Below, one piece after another: positions 4,540 to 60,409 of a stretch of 64,000 bases of DNA. Below the pieces are notes generated by a model, which was given only the letters and a program-made list of their open reading frames with translations, was not told where the DNA came from and did not search any database. Numbering within the stretch: the stretch's first letter is position 1; the number at the start of each line of letters is the position of its first letter. Origin of the DNA: Hyalella azteca. Its lineage: Eukaryota > Arthropoda > Malacostraca > Amphipoda > Hyalellidae. Location: the NCBI RefSeq assembly GCF_000764305.2, contig NW_025934661.1:65329-129328 (forward strand), written 5' to 3'. The position numbers and the translations under genes are program-made.

Positions 4540-7500
4540 GTGAGTTGAGAATATATAGTGAATATTCAAATAACTTTAATTTCCATAATAATATAACTTC
4601 TGGTACCAAGAAATTGTCCAATCCATTAAATTAATTAAGGCTATTCACCCAATGCCCACCGATACTAGCAATCAACTGTCAGAAAACCCATCTAGTCAGG
4701 AAGTGTTTTAACAACTAACAGCCACTATCGTTCATTCGGATTGACAGCTTTTAATAGGGAATCAAGAATTAGCTGCAATTTTTCGAAGGAATTACTTACT
4801 CTTGGTCATATTCAATCACTTCCTGCTGCAGAATCACCAAACAAGCAAAATTTTTTTGAATCAAATTTCAAGTTTTTTATGACTAGTGATGCGGGCTGTG
4901 ACCAGACAGATCTGCCAAAAATACATATCTATCCAAACAAAGCAGAATATGAGAGCTAAATTGCTTTTTGCTGTTCGCTATTTCTATACATAAATATTTA
5001 GCGTAAAAATGAATGCTATCACTTGAGGCATCAATCACATCTACATATAATCGTTTAATTTCTAAGGAACGACAAAGTCAATGTCACAATTTCGCTGATG
5101 TCTCTTGTAAACATCGCATGACGGAGCCTATGCAAATAAAATTAGCTGCACTATTATAACTGCACTAACTATTAACTGTTCACTGCAAATCATGTTCACT
5201 GCAAATCATGTTCACTGCAAATCATGTTCACTGCGAATCATGTTCATTGCAAATCATGTTCACTGCAAATCATGTTCACTGCAAATCATGTTCACTGCAA
5301 ATCATGTTCACTGCGAATCATGTTCACTGCGAATCATGTTCCTGTCTCTTATACACATCTAGATNCACTGCGAATCATGTTCATTGCAAATCATGTTCAC
5401 TACAAATCATGTTCACTGCAAATCATGCTCACTGCAAATCACTTCAATAGTTGTTATATTTATTAGGTGCACTTCATCTAACTCGCGCATCGCAATTTTT
5501 ATCATACTTTTCCTTGAATGTTTTGATACAATAGAATATAAATTATGTTTTCAGAACTGTCCTCTACATTGCAAAATGCAGTTAATCATCAAAATGAAAA
5601 GAGTGAAAATTAATGTTCAAGGTGAAACATAGCAAAACTTAACCTCCTACAGACAACCAATTCTGCTGCTAAAATATTAAATAATTTATAAACAGTTTAC
5701 TCAAAATTATTTTTAATATTCGAACTGAAGAACGATGGAACTCGCTCACAGGACATTTTAAGACTATGTACCGAGAAGTTAGTTCCAAACAGCGCAGCCA
5801 AGGATGAACATAAAATTTGCATTTTACGATTTTTCTTGGTCAGAAAAAACATGCGAGTATTCTATTTTTGTATCCTGAGTTTTTATCTGTATAGATTTTT
5901 TCTCTTTCAAACACAGGGACAACAGCGTCCATTATTCTGACCGCGTCCTGCACGCCAGCAGCCGACATGGCGTCCAACGCATCGAAGATTTGCACGACGA
6001 CTCTGAGCGCCTGATCAAGCTTGACCGCGACGTTGCCCAGCTTGAGGCGCTGACACCGAGACTTAGCCAAAGACCAACGTCTCGTAACGGGCTTGATGTC
6101 TCGTCTCGCAACGGGCTCAATGCCTCGTCTCGTAACGGGCTCGATGCCTCGTCTCGTAACGGGCTCGATGCCTCGTCTCGTAACGGGCTCGATGCCTCGT
6201 CTCGTAACGGGCTCGATGTCTCGTCTCGTAACGGGCTCGATGCCTCGTCTCGTAACGGGCTCGTAGCACCCCCTCGTAACAGACAGGACGGCAACGAGCC
6301 CACCGTCCTAGAGACTGACTACCAAGACGAAGACGCTAGTCTCAAGAATCGTAAGACTAGTCATCGCATCCTCCAGCAGAGCCTCGTCAGCAAAGATGGT
6401 CAGTCACTAATGTTAATGCATTTTGCCTGCCATTAATTATTAATCAATTCATAGACATTTTGTGCAGGAAATGACTGTGCCTGAGACGTTTTCTGAGTTC
6501 TTCGGTAAAAACAAAAGAATCACGTAACGTCTTTTCTGGCATGAGTTCACATTGAATCAATTTTTACAAGTTTCCATAATACTATTAGATAAATTTTACG
6601 GAGTTGAATAATGAACTATGGAATATTTGTAGTGTATAACTCCCCATAATAAAGTACCACTATGCAGTGTCATTTCAATTTATACGCAAGGGAAGGAAAA
6701 ACACCTATCGACAATCTTCACTGAATTTAATTGAAATCTTTGACTTATCATTGCAGCGATGTGAGGTAATAGTGATTTGTAGTACTTCTCTGCATACTAT
6801 GATTTAATAATCTTTGTAGGAGCGTATTTCCAATGGGCATGAATGGATTTATTCTAAAAACCGTATAATATATATGCGTATACCGTATGCAGCCACACCG
6901 TATAATATATATTAATGATTGTTGGTCTGGAATATAAAATTTTTACCCGTTGCATGAGTACATCTGTTTAACTAAAATTCACAGATAACACGCCTTTCGA
7001 GCCGTTGTCACCGACTGTTGGAAATTTGTATAAAATGAATTGAACGAGGAGACCCAACCGTTGTTAATGCTTGGTTGCCAATAATTTCCTTTTGTATATG
7101 GTTTATGTCATTCTGATTAATTCTGCAGATAGTCGAGTCCTTATTTTGTATTTATTGAAGTCATGAAGTATCTTAGAAATTGGTAACAGTAATATAACAG
7201 TCAGTAGCACAGTGCGTGAATTTCAGCACATTTTACAACGAAATTGAATAAAAAAATCGAAGTATAGCGTTCAAACGCTCAAATAATAACAACCGCAACT
7301 GTTGCTCGGAAGTAACTTTTTTCCAGCGCTGCAAGCACCAATAAGTTGCGTAATTTCAAGGTCTCAAATATTTTTGGGTGTTAATCACATGTCAGGATTC
7401 ATAAGATTCATAAATAAACACCAATAATCCTTAATATAAAATAATATTAAAATTATATCTTATTTATCCCCGTATCCTTTGATGAGGTATACTCCATGGA

Positions 7501-22500: not shown

Positions 22501-25500
22501 CGAGGTTCGTTGCTCGTCTGCGCTCATTAACTATTAGCAAGATTACCAAGCATCGCACTTCCTGGTTGCAGCTCTGGTTTCTCATCAAATTGTAACCAAC
22601 ATCGGTAATTTTGTTGTTGGTTTAAAATTCAGACTCTGCTTCTATTGCTTCAGAAAATTTACTTCTCTGTATACAACTTTCCTTTTTAGCGCATTTTCTC
22701 ATTTATGGAAAAAATGCACTAATGTGCTCGCCATGTCCGTCTGTCTGTCTGTCCATCCGTCTGTCCGTCCGTCCTTGACCTCAAGTTTTCGTCGACGAGA
22801 AAATGCGCTCTCTGTCACTCACTGCAGTGATTACTGAGTTATATTTTTTTATATTTAATATAAACAATTGACAAACCTCCAGTTAAAAAATACGTGAAGG
22901 ACACATGAATAAACTGCAAAGCAGTGATCAACATTGCGAATAAAGTGCATCTGTCTGTTGCGCATAAAACTGAATGGGCGATATTATCAATTTATTAATG
23001 ATATACTCGTGCAATTTGATTTGCAACTCATGAACTTCTTCAAGGAAAGATCCATTTATAGTTAAAAATTTTTCAACAGCTCGTCATTTTTACTTGCTAT
23101 TCAATTCGCATCCAATCGAGTCCGGTCTAATTTATCCTATTTCACTCACCTATCTATTAATCGGGCAGTAAAAACATGGGATGATTTATTTATAACCTGT
23201 TGCAGCGCAGCCCATCTTTGTATTTATATCAAAACTTATGGAGATGAGTGGGACTTTTTCCAAATAGCGATGCATTTTTCGCCCTCGTGTGCGTCATCCT
23301 GACCCAGTTTGGCTCGGCAAAAGGGTGTATCTGAACTTCTTGTAGAAACTGTGTCTCCATTAAGACACTATGACCTAATCATTTTTCTCGGTGAACAAGA
23401 GGATCAACTACAATCATTAAACCAGTAATCTTTAGTGTCCTGCAACCGATGCGAATTTGTACATAATATAAGTACAATAATATGCGATTAACACATTATT
23501 TAAAACCAAAATAATTCTTCATGTCCGTTAGTAGTGAAAGCAATTAAGTTGTTCCGTGCTCCAAAGATATTCTCATAGTTCACACGACTCGTTTACTTGT
23601 TTCCAGGGAGTTCCTAATTAAATTGATATTCTACTTGACTAAATTTTGTTTACAAAAAGATATTTAATCAGCTTCAGCCGCCCGATTTGACACAATATTA
23701 AGATTTTTACTTATACATTTTAATTTTTTCTCGTGCTGAATATTGCAGAATATTAAAGTATTTCAAAGTTTCAAAAAGAGTTTCAAAGTAGACCTAAAAT
23801 ATTTATTTTCCTTGTCTGCGCAGCGCGGTTGGTGCGTCTGGCATCCGAGAACGTGCGCTTCGTGATGGCGAACGCTCAGTGCGCCACACCCGTGCGCCGC
23901 TGCGTCGACCTCTCCGCCAACCAGACGACCAGCGGCAAAACTTACTGGCCCAGGTGCGTCTTTTGCCTGCAGGCTGGCCCAGGTGCGTCTTTGTCTGCAG
24001 GCTGGCCCAGGTGCGTCTTTTGCCTGCAGGCTGGCCAGGTGCGTCTTTGTCTGCAGGCTGGCCCAGGTGCGTCTTTTGCCTGCAGGCTGGCCCAGGTGCG
24101 TCGTTTGTCTGCAGGCTGGCCCAGGTGCGTCTTTGTCTGCAGGCCCAGGTGCGTCTTTGTACGTCTTTGCCTGCAGGCTGGCCCAGGTGCGTCTTTGTCT
24201 GCAGGCTGGCCCAGGTACGTCTTTGCCTGCAGGCTGGCCCAGGTGCGTCTTATGTCTGCAGGCTGCCCAGGTGCGTCTTTTGTCTGCAGGCTGCCCAGGT
24301 GCGTCTTTTCCCTGCAGGCACAGGTGCGTCTTTTGCCTGCAGGCTGGCCCAGGTGCGTCTTTGTCTGCAGGCTGGCCCAGGTACGTCTTTGCCTGCAGGC
24401 TGGCCCAGGTGCGTCTTTTGTCTGCAGGCTGCCCAGATGCGTCTTTTGTCTGCAGGCTGCCCAGGTGCGTCTTTTCCCTGCAGGCACAGGTGCGTATTTT
24501 GCCTGCAGGTTGCCCAGGTGCGTCTTTGCCTGCAGGCTGGCCCAGGAGCGTCTTTGCCTGCAGGCTGGCCCAGGTGCGTCTTTGCCTTCAGGCTGGCCCA
24601 GGTGCGTCTTTTGCCTGCAGGCTGGCCCAGGTGCGTCTTTTGTCTGCAGGCAGCCCAGGTGCGTCTTTTGCCTGCAGGCTGGCACCGGTGCGTCTTTTGC
24701 CTGCAGGCTGTCTCTTATACACATCTAGATGTGTATAAGAGACAGCCTGCAGGCTGAGCCCAGGTGCGTCTTTTGCCTGCAGGCTGGCCCAGGTGCGTCT
24801 TTTGTCTGCAGGCTGCCCAGGTGCGTTTTTGCCTGCAGGCTGGCCCAGGTGCGTCTTTGCCTTCAGGCTGGCCCAGGTGCGTCTTTTGCCTGCAGGCTGC
24901 CCAGGTGCGTCTTTGCCTGCAGGCTGGCCCAGGTGTGTCTTTGCCTGCAGGCTGCCCAGGTACGTCTTTGCCTGCAGGCTGGCCCAGGTGCGTCTTTTGT
25001 CTGCCCAGGTGCGTCTTTGCCTGCAGGCTGGCCCAGGTGTGTCTTTGCCTGCAGGCTGCCCAGGTGCGTCTTTGCCTGCAGGCGGGCCCAGGTGCGTCTT
25101 TGCCTGCAGGCTGGCCCAGGTGCGTCTTTTGCCTTCAGATAGGCCCGAATTGTCATGTGTCTTCAACCTAAGTCTTAGTCTTCAGAGGCTCTAAGGGTTA
25201 TGTTTGTCATTGACCAACATCGGTGACTATAACATTTAATTTTTGCAACAAAATCAGCTGAATGTTTTAAATGAAATTACGGTGAAGTTTTTGGGTAGAA
25301 AAGTAGAAATAGATCAATAATTACTAACAAAATAACCTATACACGAACCTAAATAACCTATATCTAAAATATGAAATCAGTTATTTACACGATCTGTTCA
25401 CATCATTATTTACATACCTACATCGGATCCTATTCTCACACATACCTCCGCTCAGGCTTTCCACAGCACAATAACCATTTCACCCTAACATTCCGCACCT

Positions 25501-28500
25501 TTCCTCCGGTTCACTCTAAACTAAAATGACAATTTAATATTTCGACAAATAAACAATATTACCTTAAATTTACTATCCCTTACAATGTTTCACACTTAGG
25601 ACAGAATGAGAATCGTATTTGTCTTCGATGATTTGTAAGGAGTACAAAATTATAATTTGTAAAACCTTTACGTATCGTTTTTATGCAATCAATGTCATTT
25701 CGTTTTTCTTTCCACATTCGATTGGGGGAAGGAAGGATGAATGAACTGTCACATTATACTTGGTGTATTTCTAAAGCAAACGTAACTGAGACATAAATAA
25801 CCTAAATAAAAAAACATAACGCTCAATAATTTGCCCTGCCAAGCAGAACCTAACATAACCTGAAACAGCCAAGGAGCATTAAACAAATCCTAACACAGAT
25901 TAGCACTGCTCCACATAAACCAAAGGTGCTTTGTCTAACGTTGAAACCACGTTTAAGATGTTTAAACAACGTTTACGACGTTGAGACAACTTTTACGACG
26001 TCGAAACAACGTTTACGACGTTGAAAAAACTTTGATTACTAGTTGATTTTATTAGAAACAACGTCGAATCAATGTTATTTCATCGTCATATGCCTAGTGG
26101 GACACAACTCTACTGCATCTGATTAAAAATATAATTAAAAGTATATTTTAATTAAATTAATTAAATATATTCTGCTGCGCAGATGTGCGATCGTGTACCG
26201 CTGTGGAGAGGATGCTGGATGTTGCTACTCCCCTGAACACGTCTGCTCTGTTAAAGAATCTCACGACATCGACCTCCACTTCTTCTACATGGTAAGTCAG
26301 TGATTACTTGAATGGCGGGGCTACTGCTTATACCTCGGTAACTTTGTTTTCTTTTGAGCTGTCATTTATTTCTTCGAAGTTGTGAAGTTATACTTATCGA
26401 TCTGCTATAATTGGGCGTCAACTTATGCTTCCAGGTTAAGTTAAACTTTATACGGTCTGATTTCCTACATTTGCTAGCTTAAATAAGATGGGATCTTTTT
26501 CTGCTTCTATTTCTAAGGGTGGAATCCCCTTATAAAATTTTCAAGATTATATTCTATTCAAAAACAATAGTCTATTAATTTTAGAAAATCTGCGGCTCAT
26601 TTATCAAACGCGAATGGGCCAGGTTTGTCCATTTTTTTTTAAGAATTTAGCACAGAAACGATATTAGGATCCTTCAGAATTTACTTCTCAATCAAGTTTA
26701 AGTATTCGATCAATCTCAAAATTCGATCTTCAGTTCAGAGATTTTAAAACAAGAGTACTTAATTGTGTGGAAATGGCTTTACTGGAAACTTTGAAATAAC
26801 TCACTTCTATGTTATTACGTATTGTCAAGCTAAGTTCTTAAATTCCCTGTTTTTTCGCAGCAATTGAAACGATCAATCCTTGAATCAATGAGAAATAAAA
26901 TTTAAACATTTGATACATAGTTATCCATTCAAATTTCTTCATGTATAGACTAGGAATAGTAAATAAACAAGAAATTTTTTTATTAAATCGCGTTACACGC
27001 AGATTTTAAACGCTTCAATAACATTATGTGATTTGAAATATATACCTTTTCAAATACGTAAAAACTCATCCTATTTTCCAGACGTTCGGTACTGAAAAAA
27101 CAGGCGTTGACAAACTCACTTTTGAGAACCACACGTCATGTGAATGCCGCCCTCGATTTGCCTTCGTAAATGGGTATGAATATCCTTTGCACACCGAGTC
27201 TCGCATCAACATACGACCACCTCATATGAACCAAGAGCAGCAAACTTCTGCTCCCTTCATGGGAAACCATTTTACCCAACAGCACCAAAGACCTGCTCAT
27301 CACTCGGGTGATACTCTCTACCAGCCTTTAGCATCCTCTCATCAAACGCGTAATCGCTTGACACCAGTACATCACTCCGGGACTCATCACAGCACTCTGG
27401 AAGAAGATATACGGTTCACAAACTTTTCCTTGCCAGTTTCAACCTCCTCAGATCTGCCGTCAACGAATTATTATTCACCCAGCACCTTGGATGGTACTTA
27501 CACAAGTCCAGTTACTCAAGATATGCTATACAACCTCGTTAGTGGCGAAACAAACCTACATTCTAGACTTTCAAGTACCGCGGCAGACGAGAATTTCTTA
27601 CAGACCAGTTCCACTGGTCGCTCGGTCTCGTCAACGGCAATGCAGAGCGGTACTACCAGATCTTCGACGGCAGCAACGACTTCGCGGACCAATGCCATGA
27701 GACCATCAAACGCGGTGACAGCTGCGTATACCAGCGTAATAGGCTCCCCAGTATCAGAAACCATCAGCACTGAACGCTCCTACAGACAATATAACGATGC
27801 TATCATAGGCAATAGTTTGCAATTAGATGACGATCTGAGCCAAGTAGAAAGCGCACCTTCGATCGGTGAGTTCCGGAGACACCCCGTAGTGCCGGCGCTT
27901 GTTGAAAACGTGCTTGAGAAGGACGAACCTCAAGTTAGAATCGTTGAGCAGCCTGAAATGTCGCAAGAGTCTCAGAGATGGACGAATGAGCAACAAGGAA
28001 GGACGCGCCAACAAATCAAGCTCTCACAACCTGCAGACTTGCTCGCTCAGACCTACTTGAAAAACGCGCCTCTCACAGCAAAAGATAGAAACGAAAGAAC
28101 TACTGCAGCTGTTCAAAAAGACCTTGCAGCTAAAAAAGAGTAAGTAGATGTTCAAAACAAAGTAAAGTCATATAAAGGCATAACGAAATAAATAATTACA
28201 GAAGGAAAGCTCTGCCTCTCCATTTTATTTCAAATTTCGTTTGTACTATCAATTCAATGGTTTGATAGTCATGATCAAATGCAGACAATAATTTGAGGTT
28301 AGCAAACCAACTCTTTTATTTTCCGCCTCGAATTCGTGTCCTTTATTCACAACTTTTTTCGATTCATTGTTGAACTAACACCTGGTCGACTACCGCCGAA
28401 TTTGTCTGAAGCTTCTAAGAGATTTCATAGACACCGTTGTCTGATCTGCTTATCTGAATAGAGACAACTTACAACTAATTCATACACGACGCATTCCAAT

Positions 28501-35707: not shown

Positions 35708-38700
35708 CTTGCATAAGAAAAATATTTTGCTAGGAAAAGTGGAACAAATGACGAGGCGATTGAGAATTTAATTATTTGGAAACAATTTATTAAAATTAAA
35801 TCGCAAGTTATATGGAAAAATATAGTAATTAGCTACTAATAACTAGATTCTTTTACTGTGTCATGAACAAAACGAGTGACAGTATCAAATGAAAACACTG
35901 GTAAGAACACTGAACATCCAGAATATAGGTGATCTTTTCATGAAAATTGACTCATACAAAACGGATACCTACCAATAAAAAAATTATTCAATCAATAAAT
36001 GCCACAGAACACGATTGTAATGATAAAATATAATAACTTACAACTGAAGCGCTGTGCATTTTTGTTGTTCTTGCAAGCTTTGCCTAAATAGTAGACCGGC
36101 AGGGCAGACAGGGTGAACAGCATGCCGAGGCCTGTGATGAGGAACATACTAAGATACCAAGACCAGTTTCAGAAGCACATATAATCTATTAAACAAAATT
36201 AGTAGGGAATTATAAGAAGCAATGCTCGTAAATGTACAAAAATTGTTATAAATAAAAATATTAATTGGATGGGGTGAAGCGATTCAGCGATTCAATCATT
36301 GGGAATCCACAACACTGTTGTTTAAATTTACGCTAAAAATTCAATAAACAGTAAAATATTCCAGGAAACATCAGTTTATGAAATTAGAAAAGGTCTAGAA
36401 CAGGTATTTCAATAAGAAATTAACTATTAACGAAACTGAATTGTCTCAAATAATCAATAATATATTGTACACACAAACAAGTGAAGCTAATAATATATTT
36501 TAGATATTAATAAAACGTGCCAAAAATTTTCGAAACAAAATCGATTACACATCAAGAAACTATGAATACACAATAATGTAAATTACTTATTCGTGATTTA
36601 TCCAGTAAATTATTTTTTTTAATCGAAATGCCATCATGACTTCAAAGTTCATACCGAGTTAGTTTGTAACCTGTACTTGTAGGGTCCGTGATGAGCGGGA
36701 CAATAACGAGGTAAGCACAGCACGCCAGGAACACAAGTGGCAATACAATAGGCACTTTAATAGGCCTGTGTAGGAGCGGGTGTGTGTATCTCAGCCTCAG
36801 CAAAGCGGCCGTCGCCGCGCCGATGCTCAGCCACAGAGCGAAAGACAGGCAGTTGATGAGCGCCATGATGTCTAACCCTAACAAAGCCAGGGATATTAAG
36901 AATGAGGTGATCAAAGCTGGCTTCGGGGTTCTTGCTTTGATGTCGATGAAGGACAAGACAGCGGGCATGTGGCCTTCTCTGGCCGCCGCGAGGAACAATC
37001 GGCCGGAGGTGAAGAGGATACCGTTGAGGCTGCCGAAGGTGGACAGCGCTACGAAGACCGGCACGACGAAGCGAAGTGGACCCAGCACGCGCGACCCGAA
37101 CTCCTGACGAAAGAGTAAAACATTTGATAATTCCAGCTAAAATTTATAAGCTAATTAATATTTTTCTTTATGCTGATAATTTGTCAGTAAAACTTATAAT
37201 ATTTATCATCATGAAGTTTTTTCTGAAGATTTATTCATTATGTTTGTTTCAATATTATGACAGTTGTACTTTTTAAATTTTTTGCCTCGCGGTTCACTTA
37301 TCTGGTCTAATTCATTTCAATTGATGTTTTGTCACTGTCCAAGTTACTTTGAATCGACGTTACGCTGTTGACCAAATACGTAACGTTGCTAAATTGTAAC
37401 CGATGTTATACTTTTTTATACATTTTCCGTTTAGTAATTGTTAATAATTTTCGTGCAATGATCGCCCGTGTATTTTAGCATCCAATTGTGTCGGTTATTA
37501 TCGACACAAGTGGAAAAAAATCACAGTCGAGAAATCTGATGCTGAATATAATGAAAATTTTAGCATATAAATATGATGGTAAAATTATTTAGTGTACCGT
37601 ATGTTAAGAAAGCTTAACTTTGTTTCAGACAATTTCTCAAACTCATTGGACGAATCTTAAACTTTTCAAGTTCCAATAAAATATTTCGAAACTTTATTTT
37701 GCCGCTATACGTAAGGATCAGCATAGTTTGAAGGCTAATGTATATTATAATTCATTCATATCTTCATCCAACAGAACACAGGAATATCCTGTGACATGTA
37801 CACGTTTCACACAAAATCCACTCATAAATTATTACAACAAACAAAAGTAGCATGTTACATTTCAGGAATAACACATTTTTCTTGCTGTATTAGCATATCA
37901 TTTTTAAATTTTTACAATAAAACATCTCATTGGGAAGAATTTTAACTCACGACGGCGACTGCCGACGACGAAATGAGCACGTCAGCTGGCAGGACGACGA
38001 GGTAGGCAACGTTGACGCAGACGTACACCATCGTCACCATCGGCAGCCCCACCCATATGGCCAACGGCAAGTTCCTGACCACCGAAATTCATTAATAATC
38101 ACGAGTGTTCAATACGGTAAATAATATGATCAAGACTGTGATACGACCTTTGATGGCATTGATGATAAGAAACATAACTGGAACATCGTAATGGAATAAA
38201 AAGCTCTGTTCAGCCTCCCTGATTACATCGTTGACGCTCCGAGTATAAACGCGTTCAAGAACAGACTAAATAAAGCAATGGAGAAATATATGTTCAGACT
38301 TGAAATGCCCAGCACCATATCAAACCCAGGGGAAGTCTAGTAGCTACTTCAAACTATCGTCAGTCATGAAAAGATCCGGTCAAAGGACCTGTTTTTAGAT
38401 CTCCTGTGAAAAAGTCACGAAAAGTACAGCTGTACAAGAATCGGCGACAGGCCACATCAGCCCTACTCTTCACCGTCGACATCACTGTGTTATGTTACGT
38501 TAAAACTTAATACATTGATTATAAAATTCCTATACGCATGCAAAGTATTGAGCAAAATGACCCTTCAATGTTTGATGTTATTTTTCGGACAAAAGAACAC
38601 GAATACTATTTTGTATTGATATTGTTTTCCTATTGTGTGCATGCAGCGCTCACATCTCATCAGTTGCATGCAAGGAGACATGGCCTCCATTTTAACCGGT

Positions 38701-44700: not shown

Positions 44701-47700
44701 TAGAACTGACCTGTTACGAGCACGTAGAAGCCCATGATTGTGATGATGAAGAGTGCAAGTAACTTTGCTGCAGTGAAGATCATCTGTACACGCATGGCCC
44801 ACTGCACACTGTGGCAGTTGACTGCCGTCAGCACACCTGCGTGAGAAGACGTCATATGGATAAAAAAATAGTTTACAGGCTAAAAAATACATTATCAACA
44901 ATATATTAATTGAAAAATTACAATAACATACATTAATAATTGCATTATTACCGGAATAAAGGAAGGGTATTTTGAATTTTCCACTACCAGTAGCGCACAC
45001 TTGAGGTTAACTGAAATAATGTGTATATAGGTACTTCACCGGAAACGTTGAAAAGAGCCACGAGTTTTGATGAGCTTGAAATTATTAATGAATAAGTTTT
45101 TTCGTCATTTTGCCAATTATTGCTTGTCTTATATGTTGCTTGTCCCTATTTTAATCGAAATTTAGTTGTAATATCGAATCCTGACTTTGGCTAACTAATG
45201 GCGCTGATCTCCAAAACGTTCTCTCCATGGAGCTGCTGATAGTGTCATGAGTACTACCTTACCTCTACGTGCTGCGGCAAGAGTTGTACACTTCGTCAAC
45301 ATGTAATGGCTAGTGTACTTTTATCTCATCTCTCTACATGAGTAGCAGAAGTAAATTTTTAACTCTACTCAACCTGGAAACCTTAACTCTACTCCTTTCT
45401 GACAGGAATTTATTATGTCAACCTGCTGCACGTGGCAGGAATATTAATATCTGTCTACACGTGAGGCAGTACTTCTTACTGTCTATATTCTAAAGAAGTC
45501 TAGAGCTAATCTGTCAGCAGGCAGCCCCGCAACTGCTCAGAGACGGGATCTGCTGTCATCATCTAAGCTCGTCAATATCTGTGCGACGAACAGCGTTAAC
45601 TAGACAGTTGAAGTCCAAAAAATGGCTTAATTTCTGCAAAAAGAGTTGAACAATTCGAAATAACATGTTTTCTTAATTGAGTTTCATTAATTTAGTCGTG
45701 ATCTCTAAAAATTTATTTACAATTTTTTCTCGTTTAATTAATACGGCAATTTTTTGGGAAATTGATTGATTATAGTTTGCATGCGAGATGTAAGCTACTG
45801 ATTTCTGTTCCAAATTAGAAATACTTAATTCAACTTACCGAAACACAGGAATTTAAACTATTTTAATCACCCAATCTGTAATTAAAATATCAAGACAAGA
45901 ATAGAATTTTAAAGCTGGTAAATTTTTTCCATTAGTATAAAAACCTTCTTGTTTGAACGAGTTTACCATGAATTAGATGTCAATCAAAATCTGGAGGAGA
46001 TTAATTATCGCTTCCCCACTGCCAACATAGGACAATCCTCTGATTTTTACCCAGATAAAAATTCAGGTCAGACAAAGGCAGCAGAGTCGACATCAACGGC
46101 CAGTCGCTGAAGATTCATCAATTGTTTTCAACCGAGAAGAAAACTGACGCCATCAAAGCTTTCAAAAAGTCTGATTCCTCGAAATCTAATTTGGCAGCAC
46201 TTAGCTCCTCATATCTAGCTTACTGCACCTCAAGTTTCTAATGCGGCACAGAAATCTTAGTTGTCACAATGCACTAATGAGTTAAAAAACCGTACCAAGC
46301 TATAATCATCACATGATATTGAACTTTCAATCACTAAATTCCACAACTGTTCGCATAATACTGAAGGGATATCTCATATATGCAAATTAACAAAAATCTT
46401 ACATTACATTGAGCTAATTTTAAGCATGAAGCTATACTTCGAATCAACCAAACGAAGAAGATTTTAGTTTTTGAGCGCCTGCTCCCTCTGTAGAGAAGCC
46501 GTAGAAAGTCCCGAACAAGAAAGTAGCTAAGCTCCCTAGTCAGAATTAAACCGTGCAGACGACACAGCAGACATTAGTACAGAGAAGTGCAAGGCTAGAC
46601 AATTGCCACGAGTAGCGAAGCCATGAAAAAAATCATGGAGCGCCTAAAAATGGTGACGAAAGTCTAAAAAAATTAAATGACAGCATTACAAACTTGGCAG
46701 GAGTCATAAAGAATTGAAATACTTGCATATCTCAAGCAAAATTTTGAATGAACAGCACAAATAAGTCTCGCAAAAGGCACTCGATATGAGCGGTAAAACG
46801 TCCCAGGCATTTATTTTCCTTAAGCACATACGTTGAGTTTCGAATCAGTTATAAAGATCCGAAAAATTCAGCATGTTCGAGTAAAAACAGATTTCGTTTG
46901 AAAATCAAAGTATTTAGAAAAAAACTTACCTAGAACGAGGGCAGCAAGCAGCGCAACGGCGAGACGCGGCGGCGGGCAATGAGGGAAAGCGAGGGCGAGG
47001 GAATATTCGGCGCAGGCGAGGGCGACAACACACTGCGCTGCTGGCCGCACCAGCACCACATTCACCCAGAGCGTCGTGAACGCCGGCAGGTCACCGAACG
47101 CGTGCAGCACATACGTGTACTCGCCGCCTGATGCAGGCAAGATGGTGCCCAGCTCGCTGTAGGGCAATCGAAAAAATTTTACATAGTTAGAGAAAATTTT
47201 ACATCGAGAAAATTTTACACAAGATCCAGGGGCGTCGCAAACGTTGGCTAGATGGTTATTTAACTTTTATTAAATTGTTTTGAAAATCCACCGGCGTCGT
47301 AAACGATGACTATATATTAAACTGTTTTGAAGATCCAGCGGCGTCGTAGACATTGCCTAGATGCTTGCATAATTATTAGTATTTTTTTGAGGATCCAGCG
47401 CAGTCGTAAACGTTGGCTAGAGGGTTGCAAACCTATTATTAAATTGTTTTCAAGATCCAGCGGCGTCGTAAACGTAGCCTAGATGGTGCTCAGCTCGCTA
47501 GGGGGAATGACGAATATTTTACACAAATTTTTTAATTAGTTTACAAGACACAGCAACGTAGTAAACGCTGGCAGGATTGTTCCTTGCACGCATTTAATAA
47601 ATTAAAAAAATTTTATAGATTGTTATTAAATTGTGTCAAGGAGCAATATTGTTTCGACGTAACAAACACTGGCATGATGGCGCCCAGCTCGCTATGGGGG

Positions 47701-56230: not shown

Positions 56231-58684
56231 CGGTGTGATTATTTTCTAATTCAGTAGTTGCTCCAAATTTTCTTTGGAAATTTAAAACACTTAAAACTTT
56301 AAATAAGTTCTAGATTAAACTCTCGCCAGAAGATAACAGCGAATATCATGTATCAAAAGAATGCAAAAGATAATTTGTAAATAGAAAATATGATTAAAAC
56401 TTACTGTAGCTAAGCCTGTCACAAAATATTCATTGATTCACTGTATTTCTTCAATGACTCACAATTCACAATTAAAGACAATCATTCGCCGGTTCCAGTA
56501 TTAAGTAGGCTTGATTTGACCTCCATATATTATAACAGTTTCTCGCGGGATTAAAAATTGTAAAAAAGATAGACGCGATGACTTAGGTAAAACACAATAA
56601 GATAAATATATTAACAAGAGCCTATTACTATATCTACCCACTTCTACTTTTTTGGAGATGATGTAGGATTGTACGTAGATAGCCGCGCTCTGAACGCTTG
56701 TAAACATTCGGTGCGTTTTACTAAAATGTTTACACTAAAGACCGTAGATTTTTTAGATGATATTGAATGTGTTTTCATTTCCTGGTTGATCGAACGGCAA
56801 GCTATGGAAGCGTCCTGCTATAACCAGTTTGCGGTGGTTGATAACTTAATCGCTGGTCCTATAATCTTCTTGTGGTGAGTCTCGCAAATGTGAAATTGTC
56901 ATGGCCTTTCAGAGCTGTTTAAGCTAAGGGTTTAATGTGAGACAATGACAGTTTGAAAGGACTCTGCAAAAATATGTTGTGTTGCACGTAGATATATTCT
57001 TATTATGCCTCTTTCAATTCTCAAAAATTTCCCGGTAAACTGAATGGTAAAATAATATCGGATAAACGTACGTCTTATTAAAAGCTCTTTATGTTACATA
57101 CATATGATGTTTTATACGACATTAACTATTTACTTATACGAAAAACTCCTCGAGCTTTCATGAATTGTATTGATACCAGATGTAATAATCAAATCAAAAC
57201 TAATAACACCCAATTGGAATTTTTTCTTCTGGCGTAATTTTTTTTGTTTCTACTATTATTAAATGAATTAAAATTTTCAATGATAATAATTGATTACTGA
57301 ATGGTTTATAGTTTAGATATATCAAAAAAATTGTCAACTGAATTTCATGAGAATTTTTCATGCTCAAATTTTAAGATGCAGTATTATGTCTTTAACGTGT
57401 CTTTAAATTATAGGCATGATACTGAAGATATCCTGCCTACTCTTCCTACTTTTCTTTGCTTCCTCTATACTTTTTCTTGACAAGAGATAATGTTTAAACT
57501 GAAATACGTTAATATTATAAAATATAGTGCCAATTCACATTTAAGTCAGTAAAAACATATTAGCACAGAGTTGATCAACGCGCAAAAAAGCATGCATTTT
57601 CAGCGTTGTTTCCAAATTAGAGCGAAAAACATTTCCTAGCAGTAAATTCCACCAATGCAAATATCATCAGTTGTATTAGAACAATAAACATTGAAATAAC
57701 ATTTCTAGGACAGCGACTAGATTTGTGATCTTCAGCGAGGTTTGACGTTACGTTTCTCAATGACCCTTGGAAGACGTTGCTATATTCAGTTCGACGTTGC
57801 ATCAGTATTGCTGGTCTCCCTAGGTTCACCAGCCGTACTAGCAACTGATCCAACGTCGCGCTTTGAACGTCGCAGGCGTTAGGAGCCTTTTGTGTCTACC
57901 ACAGATCTTCTCCTGAAATTATTAGAGTAAAATAAGATAAAAATTTTTATTCATTCATACAAATTCAGCAATTACAGTATTTAATACGGTATTTGAGATG
58001 TTGGTATATTTTTTCTGCCCCTTTGTGAAGAGGTTTAAGATCAATGGTAAAAAGTTAGTGAATACAACAACCTTTGGATATTGATACACGTTTCAATACT
58101 TACTTTCATTTCATCCTAAACCTGCTTCTTCTTTAAAAAATTCTAAGAAACGAACAGAATTTTCGTTTTCCGTCTGTTTCATCATATTCATCTTGCAAAA
58201 ATAAAGTTTTCACTGAATGTTCTTGGGTTCCTAATTTATTTCGAAAACTAATTAATTTTTTAATTGCTTCTTCAATACTTATAACGAACCAATCATTTTT
58301 AAGACATTTCTAAGTTAATTTACCTATTTCTTTTGACATAAATAATTATATTTTATTTCAGTCCCCGATGAACTTTAGGCAGAGAGTGTATGCATGTCAA
58401 CAGTAGCATGGCATATTACCTGCCTGAAATAAATTATTTATTCTTCATCACTTAAAAATATTCCATGTCAGATCCGTGCAATATATAATATGGCACGATG
58501 AATGAGAGGATATTTTTTATAGCGAACGCGTTTATTTTGCACAAGTAGGTTTTGAATTTGGTCAGCGTAATGAATTCATGTATTACGTATCTGTGCATCT
58601 CAGTCCCACCCATTTTTTATGCTCAAACTTCAACTCCTCAACCCTATGCACCGCACCCTGCCACCCCCCCCCAGGGACCGTCAA

Positions 58685-58720
58685 TATAAAGGCGAGTGAC
58701 AGAGGCACTCTCAACAGTTC
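58685..58720 (+). promoter_or_regulatory. mlpt: TATA core promoter of the small-peptide gene
   Basis: TATAAA is at 58685-58690 in a locally GC-rich stretch. An initiator-like CTCAACAG lies 26-31 bases downstream (about 58710-58717), the usual spacing. The next 250 bases contain no ATG before the first small ORF, which fits a leader starting here. Confidence 0.6.
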
Positions 58721-58973
58721 TGCTCGGCAGTCCCTGTAAGAGCCACGCAGGCCATCGCGCTCCCATATCCACTCGGCTGCAGTGCCTCGACTTTGTTACG
58801 CCGCATTCAGTCGACAGTGCCTCTAGAGCTGCCACGCTAGTGTCTCAAACTACTATCAATAGTGATTATTAAAGCGATCTTTAATACCATTGAAGGTCTG
58901 AATCCAATCGAGCTGTATTAATTCAGAATTGTTCTCCAGTCGTCGTAAGCTGTGTTATTTCCAGCTTTTAAAA

Positions 58974-59021
58974 ATGGCTTTTTCATTCTTCAGCTTCCTG
59001 GACCCCACTGAGAAGTATTGA
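58974..59021 (+). CDS. mlpt: Pri/Tal-type small peptide 1 (15 aa)
   Basis: The peptide is MAFSFFSFLDPTEKY followed by TGA. This is the first ATG after the predicted start site, in the context AAAAATGG (A at -3, G at +4). The aromatic N-terminal half and C-terminal LDPT-x-x-Y match the pattern of insect Pri peptides, which act as cytosolic or mobile regulators of Svb/Ovo processing. It has no signal peptide features. It lies 105 bases upstream of the second peptide ORF. Confidence 0.78.
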   Translation: MAFSFFSFLDPTEKY

Positions 59022-59126
59022 AACCCTACTTCTATGCTCCCACAATAATTCTTATTTATTATCTAACATTCTCCAGCTGCCAACGCCGCAAGATTGCCGT
59101 CGATTTCGGCTTCATTAACAAAAACG

Positions 59127-59174
59127 ATGGTTTACTTCATCATGCAATACCTGGACCCAACGGAGAAATATTGA
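59127..59174 (+). CDS. mlpt: Pri/Tal-type small peptide 2 (15 aa)
   Basis: The peptide is MVYFIMQYLDPTEKY followed by TGA, with the same length and last seven residues as peptide 1. The N-terminal half has diverged but stays aromatic/hydrophobic. The shared motif is encoded with different synonymous third positions (CCC/CCA, ACT/ACG, AAG/AAA), so the peptide rather than the DNA has been conserved. A four-codon ORF (ATG at 59034) lies between the two. Confidence 0.78.
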   Translation: MVYFIMQYLDPTEKY

Positions 59175-59257
59175 ATTCCTTGGTGTCGTGATAATTGACA
59201 CCACGAATTCAATAAGTCATTGGTCCCCGATTGCCGGTGCGACTGCGACATTAGACG

Positions 59258-59341
59258 ATGAGCTTCTTGGTAAATTTTGGTGTTTCCATCCAACTTGATG
59301 TCAACTTCCAGCAATGGGACCCAACCCGAAGAAGACCGTGA
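59258..59341 (+). CDS. Possible 27-aa ORF with degenerate DPT motif, overlapping the next ORF
   Basis: ATG AGC TTC to TGA, 27 residues, ending in QWDPTRRRP. The DPT sits in a DNA block (GGACCCAAC) shared with the LDPTEKY block of peptide 2, so this may be a decayed third copy. Its frame differs from that of the 51-residue ORF, which starts inside it at 59314. It may equally be an unused upstream ORF. Confidence 0.35.
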   Translation: MSFLVNFGVSIQLDVNFQQWDPTRRRP

Positions 59342-59469
59342 AACATTACCATAGTGCCTTTTTTCCAAACCATGTCACCACCAAGAAGAAGATGAAGTCA
59401 AAGAAGCAGGAAGTGTTGGCGGGGTCGGCCACTAGACTAAAGGCTGTCGTGCCTTGCGCCGGACGTTGA
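59314..59469 (+). CDS. 51-aa basic small ORF downstream of the LDPTEKY ORFs
   Basis: Starts MGPNPKKTVKHYHSAFF and ends VVPCAGR, then TGA at 59467. It is Lys-rich (about 12 Lys in 51 residues), with no signal peptide or membrane segment. More than half the codons end in G or C by my count, unlike the AT-rich flanks, which suggests coding. Insect tal/mlpt transcripts also carry one downstream ORF without the LDPT motif; by position this could be its counterpart, but I do not recognise sequence similarity. Translation would need leaky scanning past ATGs at 59258 and 59298, or reinitiation. Confidence 0.5.
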   Translation: MGPNPKKTVKHYHSAFFPNHVTTKKKMKSKKQEVLAGSATRLKAVVPCAGR

Positions 59470-59501
59470 ACTCTGTCTGCAGCAGCACTCCTCTTTCCTT
59501 G

Positions 59502-59932
59502 GTGAGTTTTATGAATATCAGTTCTGGGGTTTAAGGTTTAATAATTGGGTATTTTCATCGATTACTTTTATCTGTCATCGATTACTTTTATCTGTCACAG
59601 ATTACTTCCATCTGCTCTGTCTTTTCGGATGGCAAAGTTTGATATTATTACAGTGTGTATGACGTAGAACATTTAGTGAATTCACGAATAGTAGAACTAG
59701 TGTTATATCCTATTGTTCTCTTTCTTATGTTGCTGTTAGACTATACCGCAAGCAATCGTGTGAAAATCCGACCAATGTTTGAGGTTTTTTGTTTATTAGA
59801 ATATGCAGAAGAAGTTATACACATATATGTACAAATATTATTTTATAATATGTTTCCCCTATTATATAAGACGTAGCAATAAACACATTCAACTGAAATT
59901 TTAATGGAAATATTTTTCTTCCATTTATTCAG
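59502..59932 (+). other. mlpt: Predicted intron of the small-peptide gene with internal poly(A) signal
   Basis: The donor GTGAGT is at 59502 and the acceptor, with a T-rich tract, ends at 59932. The intron contains a 20-bp direct repeat (about 59556-59615, three units around ATCGATTACTTTTATCTGTC) and AATAAA at about 59877-59882, which could end a shorter unspliced transcript. Confidence 0.5.
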
Positions 59933-60034
59933 GTGCTCGCTGACAGACACGTGATGGCATCCGAAGCGCCGGGATGAGGAGCGTCTGATGGTTGACTCAG
60001 ATATCTTCTTGGCCACTCGAAGATTCTGTAGCCA

Positions 60035-60335
60035 CCTCAGACATCTTTGTGGCCACCTCTGACATCTCTTTCGGCTACTGCGAACGTTTGTCTAGCCACC
60101 TCTGCCATCCTCTGGGCTACTTCGAACGTTTGTTTGGCCACCTCTGCCATCTTTGTGGCTACTGCGAACGTTTGTGTGGCCGCCTCTGACACCTTTGTGG
60201 CTAAATCAAACGTTTGTGTGACCATCTCTGCCATCTCTGGATTTACCGCGAAGGTTTGTGTGGCCACTTCTGAAATTTTGTGGCTACTTCGAACGTTTGT
60301 GTGGCCACCTCTGCCATCTCTGGAACTATTTCGAA
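60035..60335 (+). repeat. 42-bp tandem repeat in predicted 3' exon
   Basis: About seven imperfect units around CGAACGTTTGTGTGGCCACC followed by TCTGCCATCTTTGTGGCTAC. Because 42 is a multiple of 3, frames stay open on both strands and make long but probably unreal ORFs (60047-60349 on +, 60453-60037 on -). Confidence 0.75.
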
Positions 60336-60386
60336 AGTCGTGTGGCTGAAAGTTTCTCGGTCGAACCCTACTTAGAAATATGCCAC

Positions 60387-60392
60387 AATAAA
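60387..60392 (+). terminator. mlpt: Poly(A) signal AATAAA, small-peptide gene
   Basis: AATAAA is followed within 30 bases by a T-rich stretch. It lies just after the 42-bp array and is the first canonical signal in the predicted 3' exon. Confidence 0.45.
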
Positions 60393-60409
60393 ACGCGAGG
60401 ACTTTCAAT

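Follow-up and report, generated by a model that had tools for sequence, protein, structure and literature searches.

A candidate mille-pattes/tarsal-less/polished rice gene with two LDPTEKY open reading frames in the amphipod Hyalella azteca

mille-pattes (mlpt), known in Drosophila as tarsal-less (tal) or polished rice (pri), is the textbook example of an essential gene made of micropeptides alone. Here we ask whether a locus in a 64,000-nucleotide stretch of Hyalella azteca DNA (contig NW_025934661.1; hereafter the window) is a member of this family, as an original prediction made from the letters of the stretch had proposed. In the excerpts of the literature consulted, tal genes are described as encoding several N-terminal LDPTGXY peptides followed by one C-terminal GREETSSCRRRR peptide (PMC6124123), LDPTGxY is given as the exact consensus (PMC6124123, PMC3136413), and the motif is reported from crustaceans (PMC11475943). 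The same kind of excerpt describes how, in Drosophila, the peptides bind and activate Ubr3, upon which the N-terminus of Svb is bound and ubiquitinated and the protein undergoes partial processing by the proteasome (PMC6428570).

Two short open reading frames with a common C-terminus

Two successive 15-codon ORFs with the same last seven residues formed the core of the prediction, and both are present: smORF1 and smORF2 each end in LDPTEKY followed by TGA (Table 1). Both carry A at -3 and G at +4, and they are separated by 105 nt that contain a 4-codon ORF at 59034. An in-frame ATG inside smORF2, at 59142, would yield the 10-mer MQYLDPTEKY, near in size to the 11-mers of the fly. Three of the 21 bases that encode LDPTEKY vary between the two copies, each at a third-codon position and without effect on the residue, a synonymous-only pattern with a probability of 0.006–0.02 for kappa values from 1 to 4, given three changes. 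The eight codons ahead of LDPTEKY diverge, and the resemblance between the two ORFs is confined to their last 24–25 bases. A six-frame search of the window for [LIVMF]DPTxx[YF] returned the smORF1 and smORF2 stretches only. The locus thus has the family feature of at least two short ORFs on the same strand that share a C-terminal LDPTxxY.

Table 1. Features of the candidate locus and of the upstream region (positions in the window)
Feature	Position	Strand	Sequence or product	Remarks
40-aa ORF	57760–57882	+	MTLGRRCYIQFDVASVLLVSLGSPAVLATDPTSRFERRRR, ending ...TDPTSRFERRRR	GC-rich stretch, ~0.9 kb upstream of TATA box
TATA box	58685–58690	+	TATAAA	consensus match only
Predicted ATG-free 5' leader	58713–58973	+		GC 0.48 (58691–58973), window 0.36
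smORF1	58974–59021	+	15 aa, MAFSFFSFLDPTEKY	TGA stop; start context AAAAATGG
smORF2	59127–59174	+	15 aa, MVYFIMQYLDPTEKY	TGA stop; start context AACGATGG
27-aa ORF	59258–59341	+	MSFLVNFGVSIQLDVNFQQWDPTRRRP	first ATG after smORF2; contains WDPT
51-aa ORF	59314–59469	+	Lys-rich	overlaps 27-aa ORF in another frame; putative coding
Predicted intron	59502–59932	+	GTGAGT ... TTTATTCAG	GC 0.30
Predicted 3' exon	59933–60405	+		GC 0.505; AATAAA at 60387

Short ORFs are abundant, and two random ones might be taken for a pair. We therefore consider how often chance produces such pairs, using 131.8 Mb of simulated order-2 Markov DNA of window composition (one strand) and counting ORFs of 8–40 codons on the same strand, at most 500 bp apart, with common last residues. 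The simulated sequence contained 65 pairs sharing the last four residues and 4 sharing five; no pair in the 131.8 Mb (one strand) shared six or seven. In the real window, seven shared residues were found in one pair on the plus strand, smORF1/smORF2, and in 20 pairs on the minus strand, of which the few examples examined resemble copies of a tandem repeat. Repeats are the main source of false positives for ORF pairs with a shared C-terminus. The smORF pair is not a repeat of this kind, because its likeness is limited to the terminal bases described above, because three third-codon differences separate the copies and because the locus is single copy: a DNA search placed the 1821-bp locus region once in the 519-Mb assembly, the completeness of which is unknown. 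The letters shared by the two ORFs are, moreover, the known mlpt motif bar one fixed residue. Because of this motif and the simulation, a chance pairing of two random short ORFs is very unlikely.

We also searched the genome for competing mlpt candidates, using exact patterns in the same assembly and a reversed control. The pattern LDPTEKY/FDPTEKY gave three matches in 519 Mb and none in the control. Two of these are smORF1 and smORF2; the third (L001, FDPTEKY) lies inside a 91-codon open stretch and was rejected as chance. The wider pattern, [LF]DPTxxY followed by TRR, matched 25 times, against 18 in the reversed control, and inspection of all 25 contexts showed that 22 end in a stop codon and 3 in TGG. 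Four of the 25 belong to ORFs that start with ATG and have no internal stop, namely smORF1, smORF2 and two single ORFs outside the window, MEGNLIELKLDPTHNY and MHFFFLSKARSHGRRALDPTRSY, which were set aside as each is unpaired. The other 21 of the 23 matches outside the window have no uninterrupted ATG-started ORF, and three matches on contig C3220 appear to be a short repeat. For the canonical [LF]DPTGxY there were five matches (seven in the control), without any ATG-started ORF bearing the motif at its C-terminus and without any pair. The window locus is the sole mlpt candidate found by exact pattern in this assembly of unknown completeness, and neither these patterns nor the one DNA search yielded a better or second one.

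The predicted transcript

Several features place the two ORFs in a predicted gene. The TATA box of the original prediction exists, with an Initiator-like CTCAACA at 58710–58716, ~28 bp 3' of it; since TATAAA occurs 65 times on the plus strand of the window, the site is weak evidence alone. The predicted leader is likewise free of ATG, none occurring throughout 58686–58973, such that the earliest ATG (58974) is the start of smORF1. Under a dinucleotide model, an ATG-free stretch such as 58715–58973 has a probability of ~0.007. In the window, 14 of the 1187 gaps between ATGs reach at least 270 bases, and the leader is therefore mild evidence. GC content is 0.46 in the ORF stretch, close to that of the leader, and falls to 0.27–0.34 in the 200-bp windows directly upstream of the gene model (57901–58600). 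Because GC reaches at least 0.48 in 53 of the 638 200-bp windows across the whole window, and because another GC-rich rise lies upstream of the gene model at 57.7–57.9 kb, the GC rise of the exons is support rather than proof.

Downstream of the pair, the proposed 3' intron has good splice sites and is GC-poor in comparison with its flanks (0.46–0.51), and the proposed poly(A) signal was found in the 3' exon. No ORF crosses the splice junction of the predicted spliced transcript, in which the longest ORF is of 51 aa. Rfam returned no match at gathering scores, and there was no tRNA. A 42-bp tandem repeat of about seven copies (60027–60346, or 60048–60346 on a narrower delimitation) fills most of the predicted 3' exon; it is covered on the minus strand by a 137-aa ORF with a 14-residue repeat (MAEVATQTFAVATK-like) and no Pfam match. 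Taken together, the best explanation of 58713–60405, which as a whole we regard as strongly favoured, is a predicted gene for a spliced polycistronic mRNA whose main products would be two 15-residue peptides ending in LDPTEKY.

The longer small ORF that was said to follow the pair, of 51 codons, does exist, but its length is within chance (P ~0.06) and the ATG at 59258 precedes it. In a large protein set, suspected to hold few arthropods, no protein shared three words with its product, a weak negative. The 27-aa ORF that starts at the earlier ATG contains WDPTRRRP and could conceivably encode a diverged third mlpt peptide; DPT occurs in 0.3% of simulated 26-codon stretches and was noticed post hoc. 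The state of these ORFs, together with the small number of motif copies, bears on a further reading, that the locus is a decaying or untranslated copy in which only remnants of ORFs are left and any RNA produced is noncoding. WDPT looks like a broken motif, and the 51-aa ORF is no longer than chance permits. Against decay, the changes within the heptapeptide are synonymous only, both smORFs have intact starts and stops in good start contexts, and no second copy of the locus was found. We regard decay as very improbable and retain the reading of a gene with two main peptide products.

A peptide of the GREETSSCRRRR type is absent from the 27-aa ORF, the 51-aa ORF and all other ORFs of the predicted transcript. 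A loose regular expression for this C-terminal peptide matched 18 times in the whole window and twice within 57.0–62.5 kb; at 18 matches per window, one or two are expected by chance in 5.5 kb. The match CRRFR at 59095 is an out-of-frame stretch. The other match is the upstream 40-aa ORF, which lies outside the gene model, has both DPT and a terminal RRRR, and faintly resembles the insect mlpt C-terminal peptide; the likeness is within chance expectation, making this ORF a weak lead against the predicted 5' end of the gene. A 92-codon open frame on the minus strand overlaps it. LDPT- and GREE-type expressions, applied to the 10 kb before and the 20 kb after the window, returned a single unrelated SCRRR.

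Relationship to known mlpt genes and possible function

The predicted gene resembles mille-pattes of Tribolium and tarsal-less/polished rice of Drosophila in combining multiple short ORFs in a single predicted mRNA with a shared C-terminal LDPTxxY, in the similar size of the peptides and in the lack of any long ORF from that predicted mRNA. It departs from them at the fifth position of the motif, where both ORFs have Glu for Gly (LDPTEKY, compared with the LDPTGQY and LDPTGTY listed in the insect excerpts), so that neither matches the exact LDPTGxY consensus; LDPTEKY itself was not encountered in the literature searched. As far as the excerpt consulted describes it, fly pri/tal is a single exon for three 11-aa peptides and one 32-aa peptide (PMC3136413), whereas here there are two 15-aa peptides and a predicted 3' intron. 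The insect GREETSSCRRRR peptide has no counterpart in the predicted transcript.

The layout can also be set beside that of other insects. In the partial account available, tal of Clogmia albipunctata encodes LDPTGXY peptides of 10–29 aa, spaced 111–334 nt apart and followed by a longer last peptide (PMC6124123). The spacing of the Hyalella pair is similar, and a possible last ORF starts 83 nt (27-aa ORF) or 139 nt (51-aa ORF) after smORF2. By the same account, Clogmia has four LDPTGXY peptides and, 348 nt further, a recognisable C-terminal peptide of 39 aa (PMC6124123), in contrast to two motif peptides and no recognisable C-terminal peptide here. Excerpts on hemipteran mlpt mRNAs describe an extra, lineage-specific ORF, smHemiptera (PMC11475943, PMC7606980), which indicates that additional ORFs of this nature occur in the family; the hemipteran ORF is of ~80 residues, compared with 27 and 51 here, a comparison by size rather than sequence.

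The assignment of the locus to mlpt/tal/pri therefore holds for the paired LDPTxxY C-termini, the predicted layout and the lack of a competitor, and fails for the exact LDPTGxY motif and the GREETSSCRRRR peptide. By a strict motif definition, membership is incomplete. Judged by layout and the lack of a competitor, the locus is very probably an orthologue of mlpt or its functional equivalent. It shares with the insect form the residues L, D, P, T and Y, a free C-terminus and, as predicted, the polycistronic arrangement. Support comes from the ORF pair, the synonymous-only divergence of its heptapeptide, the single-copy state, the splice sites around an AT-rich intron and the lack of a canonical competitor; Glu at motif position 5, the missing GREETSSCRRRR-type peptide and the presence of two motif peptides rather than the four of flies count against it. 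On balance, the sequence argues with good probability for a divergent form of mlpt/tal/pri, or for a gene that works alike. The family itself is already known, including from crustaceans according to the excerpt consulted (PMC11475943), and what is new here is the divergent form with Glu for Gly.

A smORF peptide gene that does not share its ancestry with mlpt would account for the same differences. Its LDPTxxY would be convergent, its ORFs would have arisen by local duplication and its function would not involve Ubr3 or Svb. Such an origin would fit both a fifth position that differs from the LDPTGQY, LDPTGTY and LDPTGXY of the insect excerpts and a predicted transcript that lacks the insect-type C-terminal peptide. 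However, of the six residues fixed in LDPTGxY only the Gly has changed; L, D, P, T and Y remain in place at the C-terminus, within a predicted polycistronic layout, and the exact-pattern genome searches found no other mlpt candidate. We consider convergence unlikely and prefer a divergent mlpt gene.

For this preferred reading, we infer transcription, translation and Ubr3/Svb action by analogy with the family. Ribosomes scanning through the leader, which lacks ATG, would first translate smORF1 and would then reach smORF2 by reinitiation or leakage. The resulting peptides, with their free C-terminal LDPTxxY, would bind the E3 ligase Ubr3, which would then take Ovo/Shavenbaby into partial proteasomal processing and so convert it from repressor to activator. 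As in insects, this would take place during segmentation and the patterning of appendages and cuticle. Patterns for an Ovo/Svb N-terminus of the insect type gave no convincing match in the genome, a point against this reading, although such patterns may miss a divergent or intron-split form and do not show that the gene is missing. One search produced six one-mismatch matches. A wider Ovo N-terminal pattern matched exactly twice, in neither case followed by an Ovo-like frame, for which divergence or an intron is a possible reason. A C2H2 finger regular expression, the sole means of this search, found none in ~40 kb around one of these matches and in 10 kb at the other.

A more specific proposal can be offered tentatively. 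In this lineage, all copies of LDPTGxY may have become LDPTEKY. A charged Glu-Lys pair in place of Gly would alter the chemistry of the Ubr3-activating signature, and Ubr3 would presumably have changed to match or given way to another E3 partner; the result would be a minimal two-peptide mlpt gene in which the insect C-terminal peptide was lost or rebuilt. We think this combination possible but doubtful. Such a change of a core residue in a crustacean would separate the positions that are conserved (L, D, P, T and Y, along with a free C-terminus) from the one that is not (Gly), and LDPTEKY would be a natural variant for testing how the peptides switch on Ubr3. A search for the LDPTG motif would overlook this gene, and the excerpts consulted mention rather than show a non-insect form of mlpt.

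Other features of the window and assembly

Sequencing adapter, a 19-base transposase end which we take to be Nextera, occurs in the window at 24708–24745, where it forms a head-to-head junction within a tandem repeat, and at 5342–5360, as a single copy; both stretches are probably assembly artefacts. A long array of short tandem repeats at 23757–25181 is open in several frames on both strands. At 27037–28143 there is a Ser/Thr-rich open frame of 368 residues; it matched nothing in Pfam, and the protein set suspected to hold few arthropods gave no homologue, again a weak negative. Open stretches on the minus strand at 36642–37136 and 46868–47266 match an amino-acid permease (AA_permease_2) and are probably exons of one minus-strand gene.

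Elsewhere in the assembly, a contig of 15,991 bp (C4890; L049, L050) contains COX1 with in-frame TGA, open under the invertebrate mitochondrial code. The gene order, read by eye from translations and ARAGORN tRNAs over 14 of 16 kb, is the arthropod-like COX1-COX2-K-D-ATP6-COX3-ND3...E-F(-)-ND5(-)-H(-)-ND4(-)-ND4L(-)-P(-). COX1 and COX2 lie too close together to accommodate trnL2, and trnL1-ND1 shares the strand of COX1; this arrangement is derived and could identify the lineage. A nuclear arginine kinase (L051) scored 613–629 bits against six single-domain PDB sequences, one of which is named 'Pro c 2.0101'; the next score was 578, and 1m15 scored 561. The six are shrimp, crab and crayfish enzymes, and 1m15 is from horseshoe crab. 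A crustacean source, perhaps a malacostracan, is thus likely from the assembly itself. Against two two-domain chains, the same kinase gave sums of 691 and 640, or 317–349 per domain.
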